Below, piece by piece: positions 8,524-13,496 of a stretch of 35,967 bases of DNA (its first letter is position 1; the number at the start of each line of letters is the position of its first letter). This stretch comes from a virus, in IMG/VR virus record IMGVR_UViG_3300009181_000183, positions 1 to 35,967 of that record, one strand, 5' to 3'. Under the pieces are notes generated by a model. That model did no database searches. It was not told the origin of the DNA and was given only the letters and a program-made list of their open reading frames with translations. Both the position numbers and the translations under genes were made by a program.

Positions 8524-9309
8524 ATGAGCACCGACACCACCGCCCCGATGGAGACCGAGGTCCGCGCCTGCGGGACCTGCGGCAAGACATTCGCCGCACC
8601 CGTTTGCCGAAACCCGTTCGACGAGACCAAGGTTCTCGCCGTTGCCAGGCATTGCGGTCCGTGCGTCGGTACCGAAAACCTCCGCATCTCCAAGGGAGTC
8701 GAATCGAGGCGCGCCGAGGCCGCGGAAGCCGGGTTTCGCGACGCCTGGAACCGGATTTGCCCAGAGGAGTACCGCTCGAAGCTCGAGGGTGGGAACACCG
8801 ACATGCTCCGCCTCGCGGACGAGCAGCCGGCGTTCGATCAAATCACCGCCCACCCGTTCGGAGCGCGCGGCCTCATCCTTCGGGGCGGCACGGGCGCGGG
8901 AAAGACCCGGTGCATGTACCGGCTCTTGCGCTCCTACTTCCTCCGCGTCCCTCGCTCGTCGATTGTCGCCATGTCGGCCGGCCGGTTCGACCGCGAGGCC
9001 CGGGACTCTGCCGGCAACTTCACGCTGTCCGATTGGTTCGCGAAGCTCGCCGTGGCCGACGTGCTTTTCATCGACGACGTGGGCAAAGGGAAGTGGACGC
9101 CCGCGACCTCGGGCCAGTTTTGGGAACTCGTGGACGACCGAACGAAGCACGGCAAGCCCGTGTTCCTGACTACCAACTTTTCCGGCCAGCGTCTCGTGGA
9201 GGTCTTGGGCCTCGACGGCGACACCTCCGAACCCCTTTTGCGGCGCCTGCGCGAACACTGCGACGTGATCGTCTGCCGCTCCAACAAACGCCAAGCCACC
9301 ACCGAATGA
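8524..9309 (+). CDS. DnaC-like helicase loader ATPase with N-terminal zinc motif (261 aa)
   Basis: It would load the host replicative helicase at the phage origin. A cysteine cluster at residues 16-47 (RACGTCGK ... C28 ... HCGPC) probably binds zinc. The AAA+ core has Walker A GGTGAGKT (121-128), a Walker B of VLFIDDVG about 55 residues later, sensor 1 VFLTTNFSG, and an arginine-rich C-terminus LLRRLREHCDVIV. Size and order fit DnaC/IstB-type loaders. I chose ATG 8524, which follows a C/A-rich leader; ATG 8476 would overlap the upstream gene by 41 bases. Its stop is overlapped by the SSB gene (ATGA). Confidence 0.88.
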   Translation: MSTDTTAPMETEVRACGTCGKTFAAPVCRNPFDETKVLAVARHCGPCVGTENLRISKGVESRRAEAAEAGFRDAWNRICPEEYRSKLEGGNTDMLRLADEQPAFDQITAHPFGARGLILRGGTGAGKTRCMYRLLRSYFLRVPRSSIVAMSAGRFDREARDSAGNFTLSDWFAKLAVADVLFIDDVGKGKWTPATSGQFWELVDDRTKHGKPVFLTTNFSGQRLVEVLGLDGDTSEPLLRRLREHCDVIVCRSNKRQATTE

Positions 9310-9761
9310 ACCACGTCACCATTCTCGGGAACCTCACCCGCGACCCCGAAACCCGATTCACGCCCAACGGCAAATCGGTCACCGAGGCGAGCATCGCCGT
9401 CACCGAACGCTGGAAGACGGAATCCGGCGAAGCCAAGGAAAAGACCGCCTTCATCGGCCTCGTCCTGTGGGGACCGACCGGCGAGGCGTTCGCCAAGTTC
9501 CACCGCAAGGGCGCCAAGGCGCTCGTCGAAGGCAAGCTAGTCCAGGAGGTCTGGGACGACAAGGACACCGGCAAGAAGCGCGAGAAGACCAAGGTGCAAG
9601 TCGAGAAGTGGCACTTCCTGCCCACGCGCGACGGCGGGCAGCAGGCCGAACGGGAACAGGTCCGCGAGGCTGCTACCCAACCGCGCACCGCCACACCCGC
9701 TTCCAAGCCCAATGGTACAGACCTTCCGCTCGATCCCGAGGAGGATGACGTGCCCTTCTGA
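9306..9761 (+). CDS. ssb: single-stranded DNA-binding protein (151 aa)
   Basis: This is a canonical SSB: the N-terminus MNHVTILGNLTRDPETRF, then TPNGKSVTEASIAVTERW, TAFIGLVLWG, and ALVEGKLVQEVWDDKDTGKK make the OB fold. A low-complexity linker ends in the acidic tail PEEDDVPF, the docking peptide for exonucleases, primase and other partners. It coats ssDNA at the replication fork. It is coupled to the loader gene by ATGA. It is longer and more bacterial-like than the OB protein at 5082-5402. Confidence 0.95.
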   Translation: MNHVTILGNLTRDPETRFTPNGKSVTEASIAVTERWKTESGEAKEKTAFIGLVLWGPTGEAFAKFHRKGAKALVEGKLVQEVWDDKDTGKKREKTKVQVEKWHFLPTRDGGQQAEREQVREAATQPRTATPASKPNGTDLPLDPEEDDVPF

Positions 9762-10336: not shown

Positions 10337-10585
10337 AAACCCCGAACCCATTGGAAAAGAGCAAAGCAACAGACCGCAGCGCAACCCACCCGCTCGTGGC
10401 AGTACAGGAAGCGCCGGGCAGACCGTCGGTGGCTTTCCGCGGCCCGGAAGGCTGACGGCCTGATCTGCGACCAAACGAGCACAGCCACGCAACTCGACCG
10501 AGCCATTGCCAGTGCGAACAGTTGGTGGTGGAAGATGGTGGAGCTTGCCGTTGAACGTGACGGCTGGGAGCGTCCGAGACCATGA
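10334..10585 (+). other. open frame without a normal start codon, upstream of small terminase
   Basis: After the TAA at 10331-10333 this frame stays open for 83 codons to a TGA overlapped by the small-terminase ATG (ATGA). The translation looks real (SWQYRKRRADRRWLSAARKA, TQLDRAIASANSWWWKMVEL, then AVERDGWERP), and third codon positions are GC-rich like coding DNA nearby. There is no ATG, GTG or TTG before the internal ATG near its end. A CTG at 10460 is the only alternative. It may be a gene with a non-standard start, a frameshifted remnant, or coding-like packaging-site DNA. Confidence 0.4.
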
Positions 10586-11181
10586 CACAGACCGAATACG
10601 CGCGGCACGCCGGGTTGACCAAGGGGCGGGTGTCCCAACTGGTCAAGGCCGGAATGCCGTTGACGTCTCCCGAGGCCGCGGACTCGTGGCGCGGTATGTC
10701 GGCCCAACGCCGCGGACCGGATCATTCGACTCCGGCCGCGGGACCGTACCGTCCGCCCGAGGCCACCGCCCCGCCGGTCGGCCCCGAGAGCGAGACCGCG
10801 GACACGCCATCGGGCGCGTACGAGCGGCAGCGCCGGATCGAGCGGGCCGCCTACGCCCTCGCTGTCAACGCCCTGCGGAACAAGCAACCGGACGCCGGCA
10901 AGCTGGTGTCCATCCACGCGCAGGCTGCGCGCAATTTGACCGAGGCGAGGAATCAGGTTATCGGCCTCGCGGAGCGCGAGAAGACGCTGGTCTCTGGCGA
11001 CTGGGTGCGGAAGGCGATGACCTCGCACGACGGCGCCGTGGCCACCCTTCTCCGCGCGATGCCCAAACAACTCGCGGGCCGCATCGCCCCGCACGACCCC
11101 GAGCACGCCGAGCAGGAATTGGAACGCTGGGTGCAGGAGGTCGCGCTCGCCACCCTCAACCAAACAGACCCCTGGAAATGA
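10582..11181 (+). CDS. terminase small subunit, Nu1-like (199 aa)
   Basis: The N-terminal HTH (TQTEYARHAGLTKGRVSQLV, then KAGMPLTSPEAADSWRGM) is the Nu1/DUF1441-type DNA-recognition domain that binds the packaging site. A Pro-rich linker follows, then a helical C-terminal half (YERQRRIERAAYALAVNALR, and LERWVQEVALATL at the end) for self-assembly and binding to the large subunit. Its size fits lambda Nu1. The large subunit does not follow directly: three other genes intervene. The ATG overlaps an upstream stop, and the stop is overlapped by the ParB-like gene (ATGA). Confidence 0.82.
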   Translation: MTQTEYARHAGLTKGRVSQLVKAGMPLTSPEAADSWRGMSAQRRGPDHSTPAAGPYRPPEATAPPVGPESETADTPSGAYERQRRIERAAYALAVNALRNKQPDAGKLVSIHAQAARNLTEARNQVIGLAEREKTLVSGDWVRKAMTSHDGAVATLLRAMPKQLAGRIAPHDPEHAEQELERWVQEVALATLNQTDPWK

Positions 11182-11732
11182 AAACCCAAACCACCATCGA
11201 AAACCTCGGTATTGAAACCCTCATCCCGTACGCAGCAAACGCCAGAACACACTCCGACGAACAGGTCGCCCAGATCGCCGGCAGCATCCGCGAGTTCGGA
11301 TGGACCAACCCGGTGCTGATCGACTCCGCTGGCACCATCGTTGCCGGGCACGGCCGCGTTATGGCCGCGCGCAAGCTCGGGATCCAGTCCATCCCGTGCA
11401 TCCGTCTCGGGCACCTCACGCCCGCGCAGGTCCGGGCCTACGTCATCGCGGACAACAGGCTCGCGCTCAACGCCGGATGGGACGAGGACTTGCTCGCCGC
11501 CGAAATGTCCGCGCTCAAGGAGGAAGGGTTCAACCTTGGGTTGACCGGGTTCTCGGACTCCGAAATCGACAAAATGCTTGGACGGACCACAGGCGCCGAA
11601 CCGTCCGGCCAAGGAATCGAATATCAGGAGAAGTACGCCGTTCTGGTCGAGTGCGACGACGAAGCCCACCAGCAGGCCACGTTCGACAAGCTCCAATCCA
11701 TGGGGCTGACCTGCAAGGTGCTAGTAAACTGA
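11178..11732 (+). CDS. ParB-like (ParB/Srx fold) domain protein (184 aa)
   Basis: Residues 8-100 form a ParB N-terminal domain: LIPYAANARTHSDEQVAQIA, SIREFGWTNPVLID, GTIVAGHGRVMAARKLG, PAQVRAYVIADNRLALNAGW. The GHGRxxAA helix is the nucleotide-binding/catalytic box; such domains can bind or hydrolyse CTP/ATP or act as nucleases. In phages this domain is very often fused to an adenine methyltransferase, but here the protein ends after a short tail (EIDKMLGRTT, then a beta segment EKYAVLVECDDE) with no methyltransferase motifs. It is coupled to the small terminase gene and lies 4 bases before the ABC-GNAT gene, so it probably works with that cassette. Confidence 0.88.
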   Translation: MKTQTTIENLGIETLIPYAANARTHSDEQVAQIAGSIREFGWTNPVLIDSAGTIVAGHGRVMAARKLGIQSIPCIRLGHLTPAQVRAYVIADNRLALNAGWDEDLLAAEMSALKEEGFNLGLTGFSDSEIDKMLGRTTGAEPSGQGIEYQEKYAVLVECDDEAHQQATFDKLQSMGLTCKVLVN

Positions 11733-11736
11733 TCCC

Positions 11737-12861
11737 ATGAAAGTCCAAATCAGAAACAGATGCTCGGATTTCAACAGCTACCGAGCGGCGCGGGTCAAGA
11801 GTCTGTTCAACTGCGAGTCCGGCGCGAACTTCAACCTAGACGCGGAGATCCCTGACGATTCCGCGGAGTGGAAAATTGGCGTAGTCGTCGGCCCATCCGG
11901 GTCCGGCAAAACGTCGATAGGACGGTCAGTATGGCCGGACGTTGGCATCTATGACGGGGACTTCGGGTGGCCAAAGGACGCCCCGATCATTGACGCAATC
12001 GCTCCTGTCGGGAACTTCGACGACGTTGCCGGCGCACTGTCCGCGGTCGGGCTGGGAAGCGTACCGGCCTGGCTGCGTCCGTTCCACGCCCTGTCGAACG
12101 GGGAGCGGTTCCGGGCCGGTCTTGCCCGGATAATCGCGGAGGGGAAGGAAAAGGTCATCATCGACGAGTTCACGTCCGTCGTGGACCGACAGATCGCCAA
12201 GATCGGGGCAAGTGCGTTTGCCAAGGCGTGGAGACGCGGGGCGGGAAAAGCCATCCTGCTTTCGTGTCACTACGACATCCTTGATTGGATTGAACCGGAC
12301 TGGGTGTTCGATACCCGGACCGCGCGGCTCGAAAGGGGGTTACTTCGGCGACCCAAATTTGACCTCGAAATATGGAAGACGGACGGCAGCTACTGGCCTG
12401 CGTTTGAGCCGCATCACTATCTGAAGCTTCCGCGAATGGTCGCCGCTCAATACTACGTCGGGTTTGTCGATGGGGAGGCGGTCAGCCACATTGCGGTCTC
12501 CCCTCGTCTTGAAATCGGCGGAATGCGCGCGTGCCGAATGGTCGTCATGCCGGAGTGGCAGGGCGCCGGCGTCGGGGTGCGCTTCCTGAACGAAGTGTGC
12601 CGCTTGCAATTCGACCCATCGGCGAACCGGTTCGCGCCGCGGGTGAAGGCCGTCTACTTCCACACCTCTCATCCAGGCCTTTGCGCCGCCATGCGGCGGG
12701 ACAAGAAATGGGTGCAGGTTTCGCAAATGATGGGCGGGGGTCACAAAGGAAAGTCTGGTTCGAGCATAGCAAAATCGGGAGGAATCAGCGCCGGGTACGG
12801 CGGCCACCACCGTGCCGTCCAGGGCTTCAAGTTCATTCGTCCGAAGGAAACCAAAGCATGA
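11737..12861 (+). CDS. ABC-type ATPase fused to GNAT acyltransferase (374 aa)
   Basis: This is a soluble two-domain enzyme. The ATPase half (about 1-205) has Walker A GPSGSGKT (52-59), signature LSNGE (119-123), Walker B KVIIDE (139-144), D-loop SVVD (147-150) and H-loop His178. The signature lies only about 60 residues after Walker A, so this is a minimal ABC domain without a transporter partner. The C-terminal half has an entry motif EPHHYLKLPRM (224-234), a core HIAVSP, the acyl-CoA-binding motif VVMPEWQGAGVGVRF (269-283) and a TSHPG turn (310-314). This resembles ABC-GNAT phage proteins and distantly the Mom-type GNAT fold. It ends in a Gly/Lys/His-rich tail. The ATGA overlap with the formyltransferase implies a shared pathway. 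Substrate unknown. Confidence 0.82.
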   Translation: MKVQIRNRCSDFNSYRAARVKSLFNCESGANFNLDAEIPDDSAEWKIGVVVGPSGSGKTSIGRSVWPDVGIYDGDFGWPKDAPIIDAIAPVGNFDDVAGALSAVGLGSVPAWLRPFHALSNGERFRAGLARIIAEGKEKVIIDEFTSVVDRQIAKIGASAFAKAWRRGAGKAILLSCHYDILDWIEPDWVFDTRTARLERGLLRRPKFDLEIWKTDGSYWPAFEPHHYLKLPRMVAAQYYVGFVDGEAVSHIAVSPRLEIGGMRACRMVVMPEWQGAGVGVRFLNEVCRLQFDPSANRFAPRVKAVYFHTSHPGLCAAMRRDKKWVQVSQMMGGGHKGKSGSSIAKSGGISAGYGGHHRAVQGFKFIRPKETKA

Positions 12862-13496
12862 AGGTTCTATTGGCAGGGCAAAAATGGTTCGGGGCGGAGG
12901 TTTTCCGCGCCGTCCGGAAAATCGATGGAGTTGAGATCGCGGCTGTTTCGTCGCCAGTCGGAATCGAAAAGGAAGACAAGCTGACCGCGCAGGCGGGTTT
13001 GGCAAGAATCCCGATCATCCCGGCCGGGTCGCTTCGGGCCACCAATATACCGGATGGAATCGACCTCATTGTCGCGGCGCATTCGCACGACTTCATTTCG
13101 GAGAAAACGAGGCTCCGGTCCCAGTACGGAGGAATCGGCTACCACCCGAGTCTCCTTCCGCTGCACAAGGGACGCGACGCAGTGCGCTGGTCGATCCGAA
13201 TGCGGGAGCGGGTCACCGGCGGAACCGTCTATCGGCTCTCAAACAGGATGGACGGCGGAAACATTCTCGCACAGGAACACGTCTTCATCCGCCCCGATGA
13301 TACGGCGGAAGAACTTTGGAGGCGCGACCTCTGCCCGCTCGGCGTGAAGCTGCTGGCCGAAGTCGTGGCGCGTTTCAAACGTGGTGGACATTTGCTCGGA
13401 GATCCACAGGACGAAGAACTCGCAACCTGGGAACCGTCGATTGACAGGCCCCCAGCGTTCAGGCCGGACCTTCTTCTTCTTGGCTACAAAAAATGA
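12858..13496 (+). CDS. 10-formyl-THF-dependent formyltransferase-like enzyme (212 aa)
   Basis: The fold is that of GAR/methionyl-tRNA formyltransferases: N-terminal Rossmann strand MKVLLAGQKWFGAEVF, IDLIVAAHSHDFIS, then the signature GGIGYHPSLLPLHKGRDAVR, and TGGTVYRLSNRMDGGNILAQ. His96 and Asp132 are in place and are 36 residues apart, as in glycinamide-ribonucleotide formyltransferase. The usual catalytic Asn two residues before the His is Gly94 here. It lacks the C-terminal tRNA-binding domain of Fmt, so Met-tRNA is an unlikely substrate. It is coupled to the ABC-GNAT gene before it and to the large terminase gene after it, which suggests a phage-specific formylation, possibly of the GNAT product or of a DNA base. 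Confidence 0.85.
   Translation: MKVLLAGQKWFGAEVFRAVRKIDGVEIAAVSSPVGIEKEDKLTAQAGLARIPIIPAGSLRATNIPDGIDLIVAAHSHDFISEKTRLRSQYGGIGYHPSLLPLHKGRDAVRWSIRMRERVTGGTVYRLSNRMDGGNILAQEHVFIRPDDTAEELWRRDLCPLGVKLLAEVVARFKRGGHLLGDPQDEELATWEPSIDRPPAFRPDLLLLGYKK

Follow-up and report, generated by a model that had tools for sequence, protein, structure and literature searches.

Phage proteins in which an ABC ATPase is fused to a GNAT domain (ABC-GNAT) are already known as PHROG 11143, and they were predicted to acylate DNA bases by Iyer and Aravind in 2013, a prediction that was restated in 2021 for jumbo phages (PMC7824862). The 2021 text leaves the acyl group uncharacterised and mentions neither ParB nor a formyltransferase. 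Temperate and lytic phages alike often encode a member, which is usually annotated as a hypothetical protein or an iron transporter. In the literature searched, we found no biochemical test of the family and no modified nucleoside from any phage carrying it. TmcA, a tRNA acetyltransferase, likewise combines an ATPase and a GNAT in one chain; however, its ATPase is of the helicase type, not ABC, and its substrate differs from the one proposed for ABC-GNAT.

Mom is another GNAT-type phage enzyme, and it has neither an ABC domain nor acyl-donor genes, whereas the ABC-GNAT cassette has the ABC domain and, in some clades, accessory genes. Phage Mu closes with the genes for Com and then Mom, 115 bp short of its right end, and Com controls the translation of mom (PMC6483171). 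Phage proteins of the ParB-CTPase fold are fused to or located beside DNA-modifying enzymes; ParB of the kind described below accompanies phage DNA methyltransferases and Mom, and a ParB-like protein accompanies CmoX (PMC12783734). The present analysis adds to these systems the C-terminal tail of the ParB partner, the exchange of ABC-GNAT with Mom, and accessory modules that may make the acyl donor.

An ABC ATPase fused to a GNAT domain

The DNA analysed here (the window) is the whole IMG/VR virus record IMGVR_UViG_3300009181_000183, 35,967 bases from a tailed phage; all features below lie on the plus strand. Genes for terminase, portal, head protease and major head protein were recognised downstream of the ABC-GNAT cassette by Pfam and PHROG profile matches. 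The ORF at positions 11737..12861 (ATG start, 374 aa, open throughout) is a real gene encoding an ABC ATPase fused to a GNAT. The profile of PHROG 11143, a family of unknown function with 357 profile positions, matches residues 1-371 of the product (E = 4.6e-142), and relatives are encoded in 66 phage records and in no fewer than 177 stretches of IMG/VR.

The ABC ATPase domain (residues 1-204, 11737..12348) contains Walker A, GPSGSGKT (residues 52-59, 11890..11913); the ABC signature, LSNGE (residues 119-123, 12091..12105); Walker B, VIIDE, with the catalytic Glu 144 (residues 140-144, 12154..12168); the D-loop, SVVDR (residues 147-151, 12175..12189); and the H-loop His 178 (12268..12270). K58, S120, G122, D143, E144 and H178 were invariant in an alignment of 66 members, and D150 was kept in 63/66, so that the full set of motifs listed in a preliminary description of this gene holds across the family. 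The single canonical ABC element missing is the Q-loop Gln; no conserved Gln column was found between Walker A and the signature in the 66-member alignment. The GNAT domain (residues 205-374, 12349..12858) includes HHYL at residues 226-229, Arg267 and, as GNAT motif A, the acyl-CoA pyrophosphate loop QGAGVG (residues 275-280, 12559..12576), which the preliminary description had already placed in the same chain. Y228, R267, Q275, G276 and G278 were invariant, and Pfam Acetyltransf_7 was found in 66/66 members at a threshold of E<=10. Some residues near the GNAT site differ by clade; residues 308-309, for example, are FH in the clade with a formyltransferase and NV in the set of Gordonia phage Jace (both described below).

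An AlphaFold2 model built on the 66 sequences (pLDDT 88.3, pTM 0.78) was compared with solved structures using VIA-align. Residues 1-204 aligned with many ABC ATPases (Z about 14-15), and residues 208-369 aligned with GNATs, namely 1y9k (Z 15.7 over 139 residues), the acetyl-CoA-bound 6ao7 (Z 14.8) and RimI (Z 14.5). The C-terminal half thus has the GNAT fold on which the preliminary description had staked its proposal. Foldseek listed no matches other than ABC ones, because the ABC domain fills its list. In the Firmicutes phages P335 (Lactococcus), Oenococcus, Enterococcus 9184, Streptococcus MismyG and Thomasclavelia, ABC and GNAT are separate genes, adjacent or overlapping, and the domain boundary of the fusion is therefore confirmed. 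ABC ATPases with intact catalytic residues bind and hydrolyse ATP on dimerisation, and judging from its motifs the ABC domain of ABC-GNAT should do the same.

A single place in Tenacibaculum phage pT24, which is named in PMC7824862, shows homology to the window protein (34% identity across residues 31-322 of the latter), and the system of Iyer and Aravind shares with the window protein both the domain pair and the proposed target. The pT24 gene (L090:4896-6068) contains an in-frame stop in the record and is annotated as two genes; damage, a sequencing error and recoding are all possible.

The Pfam family ABC_tran matches the window protein, and many phage records annotate its relatives as the ATP-binding subunit of a transporter (iron siderophore, hemin or oligopeptide). 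This assignment was rejected, since no membrane gene recurs beside ABC-GNAT in the loci of relatives, where the cassette consists of ParB, ABC-GNAT and either a formyltransferase or PanD/CoA-transferase; the absence of a membrane partner had also been stated in the preliminary description. With the GNAT fused to the ATPase and the Q-loop Gln not conserved, a transporter role is extremely improbable. The MADS defence component mad3 was rejected as a counterpart as well, its best stretch covering only residues 114-151, the generic region of the ABC signature and Walker B. A scan of bacterial genomes, in which the patterns of the profile were generic ABC motifs, gave only weak, mostly partial ABC matches.

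A ParB-like protein with a C-terminal tail precedes ABC-GNAT

A ParB-like protein of 184 aa is encoded directly upstream (11178..11732). The mechanical ORF, 10506-11732, begins too early for ParB, and we took the ATG at 11178 as the start. The protein matched ParB_N of Pfam (6e-5) and many ParB PHROGs, and its AlphaFold2 model (pLDDT 92) shows a flexible, low-confidence linker at about residues 134-150. After this linker stands a separate, confidently modelled element of about 35 residues around one helix (residues 162-174; 11625..11729), which was traced among relatives with an iterated HMM and is called the tail here.

The genes of the cassette are tightly packed: ParB stops at 11732, ABC-GNAT occupies 11737-12861, the formyltransferase (FT) starts at 12858, and the terminase start at 13493 overlaps the FT stop. 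ParB lies directly 5' of ABC-GNAT in most relatives, and the layout of ParB-tail, ABC-GNAT and accessory enzyme was found in dozens of phages. Among the 80 closest IMG/VR loci, the order of ParB or tail, ABC-GNAT and FT was nearly without exception where the contig was long enough. The tail was detected in 66/67 loci with FT, 12/13 with PanD and CoA-transferase, 4/4 with CoA-transferase, 19/19 that were cut by contig ends, and 58/77 without an accessory gene. In Mu-like relatives the tail alone forms a stand-alone ORF of 42-60 aa. A Com-like zinc finger, which was expected upstream in these phages, was rejected, as the small ORFs there are the ParB tail and not zinc fingers. By analogy with Com and mom, a short upstream ORF could still act in translational control.

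In some phage records (L085, L099) the label "DNA modification methylase" is attached to the ParB protein, and "iron siderophore transporter" to the ABC ATPase. For the Oenococcus ParB protein, ParB_N was the only significant family found. Microbacterium phage Leaf (L204:1-1884) gave no ABC-GNAT match; three ParB-like genes in a row immediately precede its terminase. Upstream in the window, the ORF at 8604-9761 carries an SSB domain only at residues 235-338; its mechanical start probably lies upstream of the real one, which would make the SSB gene shorter than the ORF.

ABC-GNAT and Mom exchange in the same genome slot

The Arthrobacter phages EastWest (ParB and ABC-GNAT) and Sicarius2 (ParB and Mom) are syntenic, with flanking proteins 67-71% identical and sliding clamps 54% identical, and the Mom of Sicarius2 is a true Mom (Pfam Mom, 6.6e-59). 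The two phages are 75% similar in DNA sequence from the gene 5' of ParB to a point inside ParB; the similarity is lost ahead of the tail and returns past the enzyme. The two ParB proteins are 60% identical over residues 5-133, and their C-terminal tail switches with the enzyme: in Sicarius2 (L202:908-2064) ParB ends in a zinc ribbon, CPNCGHTF, and is followed by Mom, whereas in EastWest (L091:3444-5113) it ends in the tail and is followed by ABC-GNAT. The window ParB shares ParB_N and the link to DNA modification with other phage proteins of the ParB-CTPase fold and differs from them in carrying the ABC-GNAT-associated tail. The Mom-linked ParBs of Appa (L197) and Salinibacter B2_17 (L198) also end in a zinc ribbon of the CPNCG type. 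Because the tail is almost universally linked to ABC-GNAT and is exchanged together with the enzyme, it may serve as an adaptor. This exchange hints at a role for the puzzling ParB partner in phage DNA-modification systems.

A second exchange was observed in Mu-like phages. Porphyromonas phage 008a carries a repressor, a transposase, and MuB-like and Gam-like genes on its left side, and the tail ORF, ABC-GNAT and FT on its right, 168 bp from the end. Mom and ABC-GNAT are thus both GNAT-type phage enzymes in one genome slot, at the end of Mu-like phages and behind ParB in Arthrobacter phages; the evidence for this shared slot comes from relatives and not from the window's own lineage. Aeromonas phage PX29 (L084, L200) encodes a Mom-like protein as well as an ABC-GNAT, at separate places in its genome.

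Direct similarity between the two enzymes is weak. The window protein gave no match to the Mom family PF25680, the best relative seen reaching 14.2 bits against a cut-off of 27.1, and hhalign of the GNAT part with Mom gave only a weak match (probability 15%, E 0.0017, 55 columns). A His-Tyr pair is kept near the start of the GNAT part in both families (H48-Y49 in Mom, His227-Tyr228 in ABC-GNAT), and Arg101 of Mom may correspond to Arg267. Our claim is that ABC-GNAT works like Mom, not that it is Mom.

Taken together, the exchange with Mom, the slot at the right end of Mu-like phages, and the company of a ParB that otherwise attends DNA-modifying enzymes argue well, as genetic context, for DNA as the probable target of the cassette. 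The preliminary description had proposed that the fusion directs acylation to a nucleic acid in an ATP-dependent way. That proposal is supported in part, by the Mom exchange, the ParB partner and the independent published prediction of DNA base acylation; its idea of a nucleic acid target stands, although the ground it gave, the habit of soluble ABC ATPases of handling DNA or RNA, is not what supports it.

Two other acceptors were considered. Some phage GNATs are known to act on host proteins (PMC7824862), and the GNAT part aligns structurally with RimI; ABC-GNAT could accordingly acetylate or formylate a host or phage protein, such as RNA polymerase or a defence protein, in the manner of the phage GNAT Rac. 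We consider a protein acceptor distinctly unlikely, as the cassette and the ParB tail jointly take over a conserved slot from Mom, ABC-GNAT stands in Mom's place in a Mu-like phage, and a DNA-associated ParB is its partner in most loci. An RNA acceptor, tRNA or mRNA, would be modified in an ATP-dependent manner by analogy with TmcA. The single-chain layout of ATPase and GNAT is that of TmcA, and methionyl-tRNA formyltransferase is related to FT; however, the class of the ATPase differs, no RNA-related sign was seen in the neighbourhood, and the exchange in the Mom slot speaks for DNA, which leaves the RNA analogy very unlikely.

A formyltransferase without the catalytic Asn follows ABC-GNAT

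FT (12858..13496; Formyl_trans_N, 3.9e-17) begins with an ATG that overlaps the ABC-GNAT stop (ATGA), and it is related to the hydrolase domain of 10-formyl-THF dehydrogenase (FDH). Its best PDB match was FDH (2bw0, 3.4e-19 over residues 1-193), with the next family at 2e-12, and HypX fell below threshold in this sequence search against solved structures. FT is co-linear with the FDH domain and stands alone as a phage protein, whereas FDH adds acyl-carrier and aldehyde dehydrogenase domains. In the active-site motif GYHPSLLP (13137..13160) the catalytic His (His96) is kept and the Asn is replaced by Gly. Among 66 aligned FTs, the His was invariant, the Asp was invariant except for one gap, and the Asn position held G or I, with N in 0/66. 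Amine formyltransferases depend critically on the catalytic Asn, and FDH has Ile in its place (PMC4388273). FT and FDH share the His and Asp, and both lack the Asn. Neither FT nor the ParB tail, the partners that define the system, appeared in the preliminary description.

Besides the window, 67 locus rows have FT 3' of ABC-GNAT. In a FastTree tree of 181 ABC-GNAT rows, among which several loci are near copies, FT occurs in 68/181, all 68 within one clade of 86 rows. The other 18 rows of this clade comprise 13 cut by contig ends and 5 without FT, i.e., FT is present in 68/73 uncut rows. The Gordonia phages NHagos and BiggityBass are of the FT type, whereas no accessory gene was found in Arthrobacter phage EastWest. 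The Pasteurella-like, firmicute and jumbo-phage groups showed no accessory gene, meaning none recognised with the queries used.

FDH hands the formyl group to a 4'-phosphopantetheine thiol, and HypX has been proposed to make formyl-CoA through a related domain, direct proof lacking according to its authors (PMC6802093). Because a CoA-dependent GNAT adjoins an FDH-type enzyme, we suggest by analogy that FT makes formyl-CoA as the donor in the window's clade; the donor there is probably not acetyl-CoA.

FT could have another role in the same DNA-modifying cassette, formylating an amino group that has already been put on the base or on a nucleotide precursor, or tuning the folate pool, with the GNAT using acetyl-CoA or another acyl or aminoacyl donor. 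Amines are the usual substrates of formyltransferases, the isolated hydrolase domain of FDH can simply hydrolyse 10-formyl-THF (PMC4388273), and clades without accessory genes must draw on a host donor. We regard this alternative as rather unlikely, the most serious of those considered here; the Asn needed by amine formyltransferases is missing in 66/66 FTs, and a CoA-transferase in a parallel clade points to CoA thioesters.

A putative Mom-like cassette for DNA base acylation

We postulate a Mom-like phage cassette for DNA base acylation whose accessory genes supply an acyl-CoA reserved for this reaction (formyl-CoA in the window's clade), and we give this explanation about an even chance. 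FT would take the formyl group from 10-formyl-THF and pass it to a pantetheine thiol, yielding formyl-CoA. The GNAT domain would then move the acyl group from acyl-CoA to a base amine, e.g., N6 of adenine or N4 of cytosine, of the phage's own DNA, and the acylated bases could hide this DNA from restriction. Dimerisation of the ABC domain, driven by ATP, may gate loading on the duplex or its distortion, and the ParB-like protein may recruit or license ABC-GNAT on DNA via its C-terminal tail. One point counts against the Mom-like reading: Mom works without an ATPase domain, so that a Mom-like role gives no reason for the ABC domain.

To our knowledge, neither enzymatic formylation of DNA nor the transfer of any group from formyl-CoA to DNA has a precedent. 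Specific masses can be predicted from the accessory genes for laboratory phages, and the prediction from 2013 therefore becomes testable by nucleoside mass spectrometry.

PanD and a CoA-transferase take the place of FT in the Jace clade

A second set of accessory genes was found in another clade, of 28 rows, that includes Gordonia phage Jace. Here 17 rows have PanD and/or a family III CoA-transferase, and most of the remaining 11 represent a second ABC-GNAT in an operon that already has one. In the position of FT, this clade carries the aspartate decarboxylase PanD (Pfam, 2e-33) and a short CoA-transferase III (Pfam, 2e-8). The Gly-Ser cleavage site of PanD was present in 15/15 sequences, and the GD motif of the CoA-transferase, which is expected to hold the catalytic Asp, in 19/19, many of these rows being near-identical. 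The CoA-transferase is short for its family, at roughly half the usual length.

PanD and the CoA-transferase could possibly make beta-alanyl-CoA; alternatively, PanD could serve CoA synthesis instead of donor making. Since two unrelated enzyme sets occupy one position, the general idea that the accessory genes supply an acyl-CoA is better supported than by either set alone, and we infer this supply as their shared role. A more specific form of the acylation cassette can be drawn from it, in which swappable donor genes set the acyl group, giving N-formylated bases for the window's clade, beta-alanylated ones for the Jace clade and probably acetylated ones where no accessory gene is present, with an ATP-gated GNAT brought to DNA by ParB via the exchanged tail. 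We offer this form tentatively and consider it doubtful as a whole.

In Jace and its relatives (L086:4420-7185, L101-L106, L113-L117), PanD and the half-length CoA-transferase III lie directly behind ABC-GNAT, and a second ABC-GNAT copy was observed within the same operon in L101-L106 and L111.
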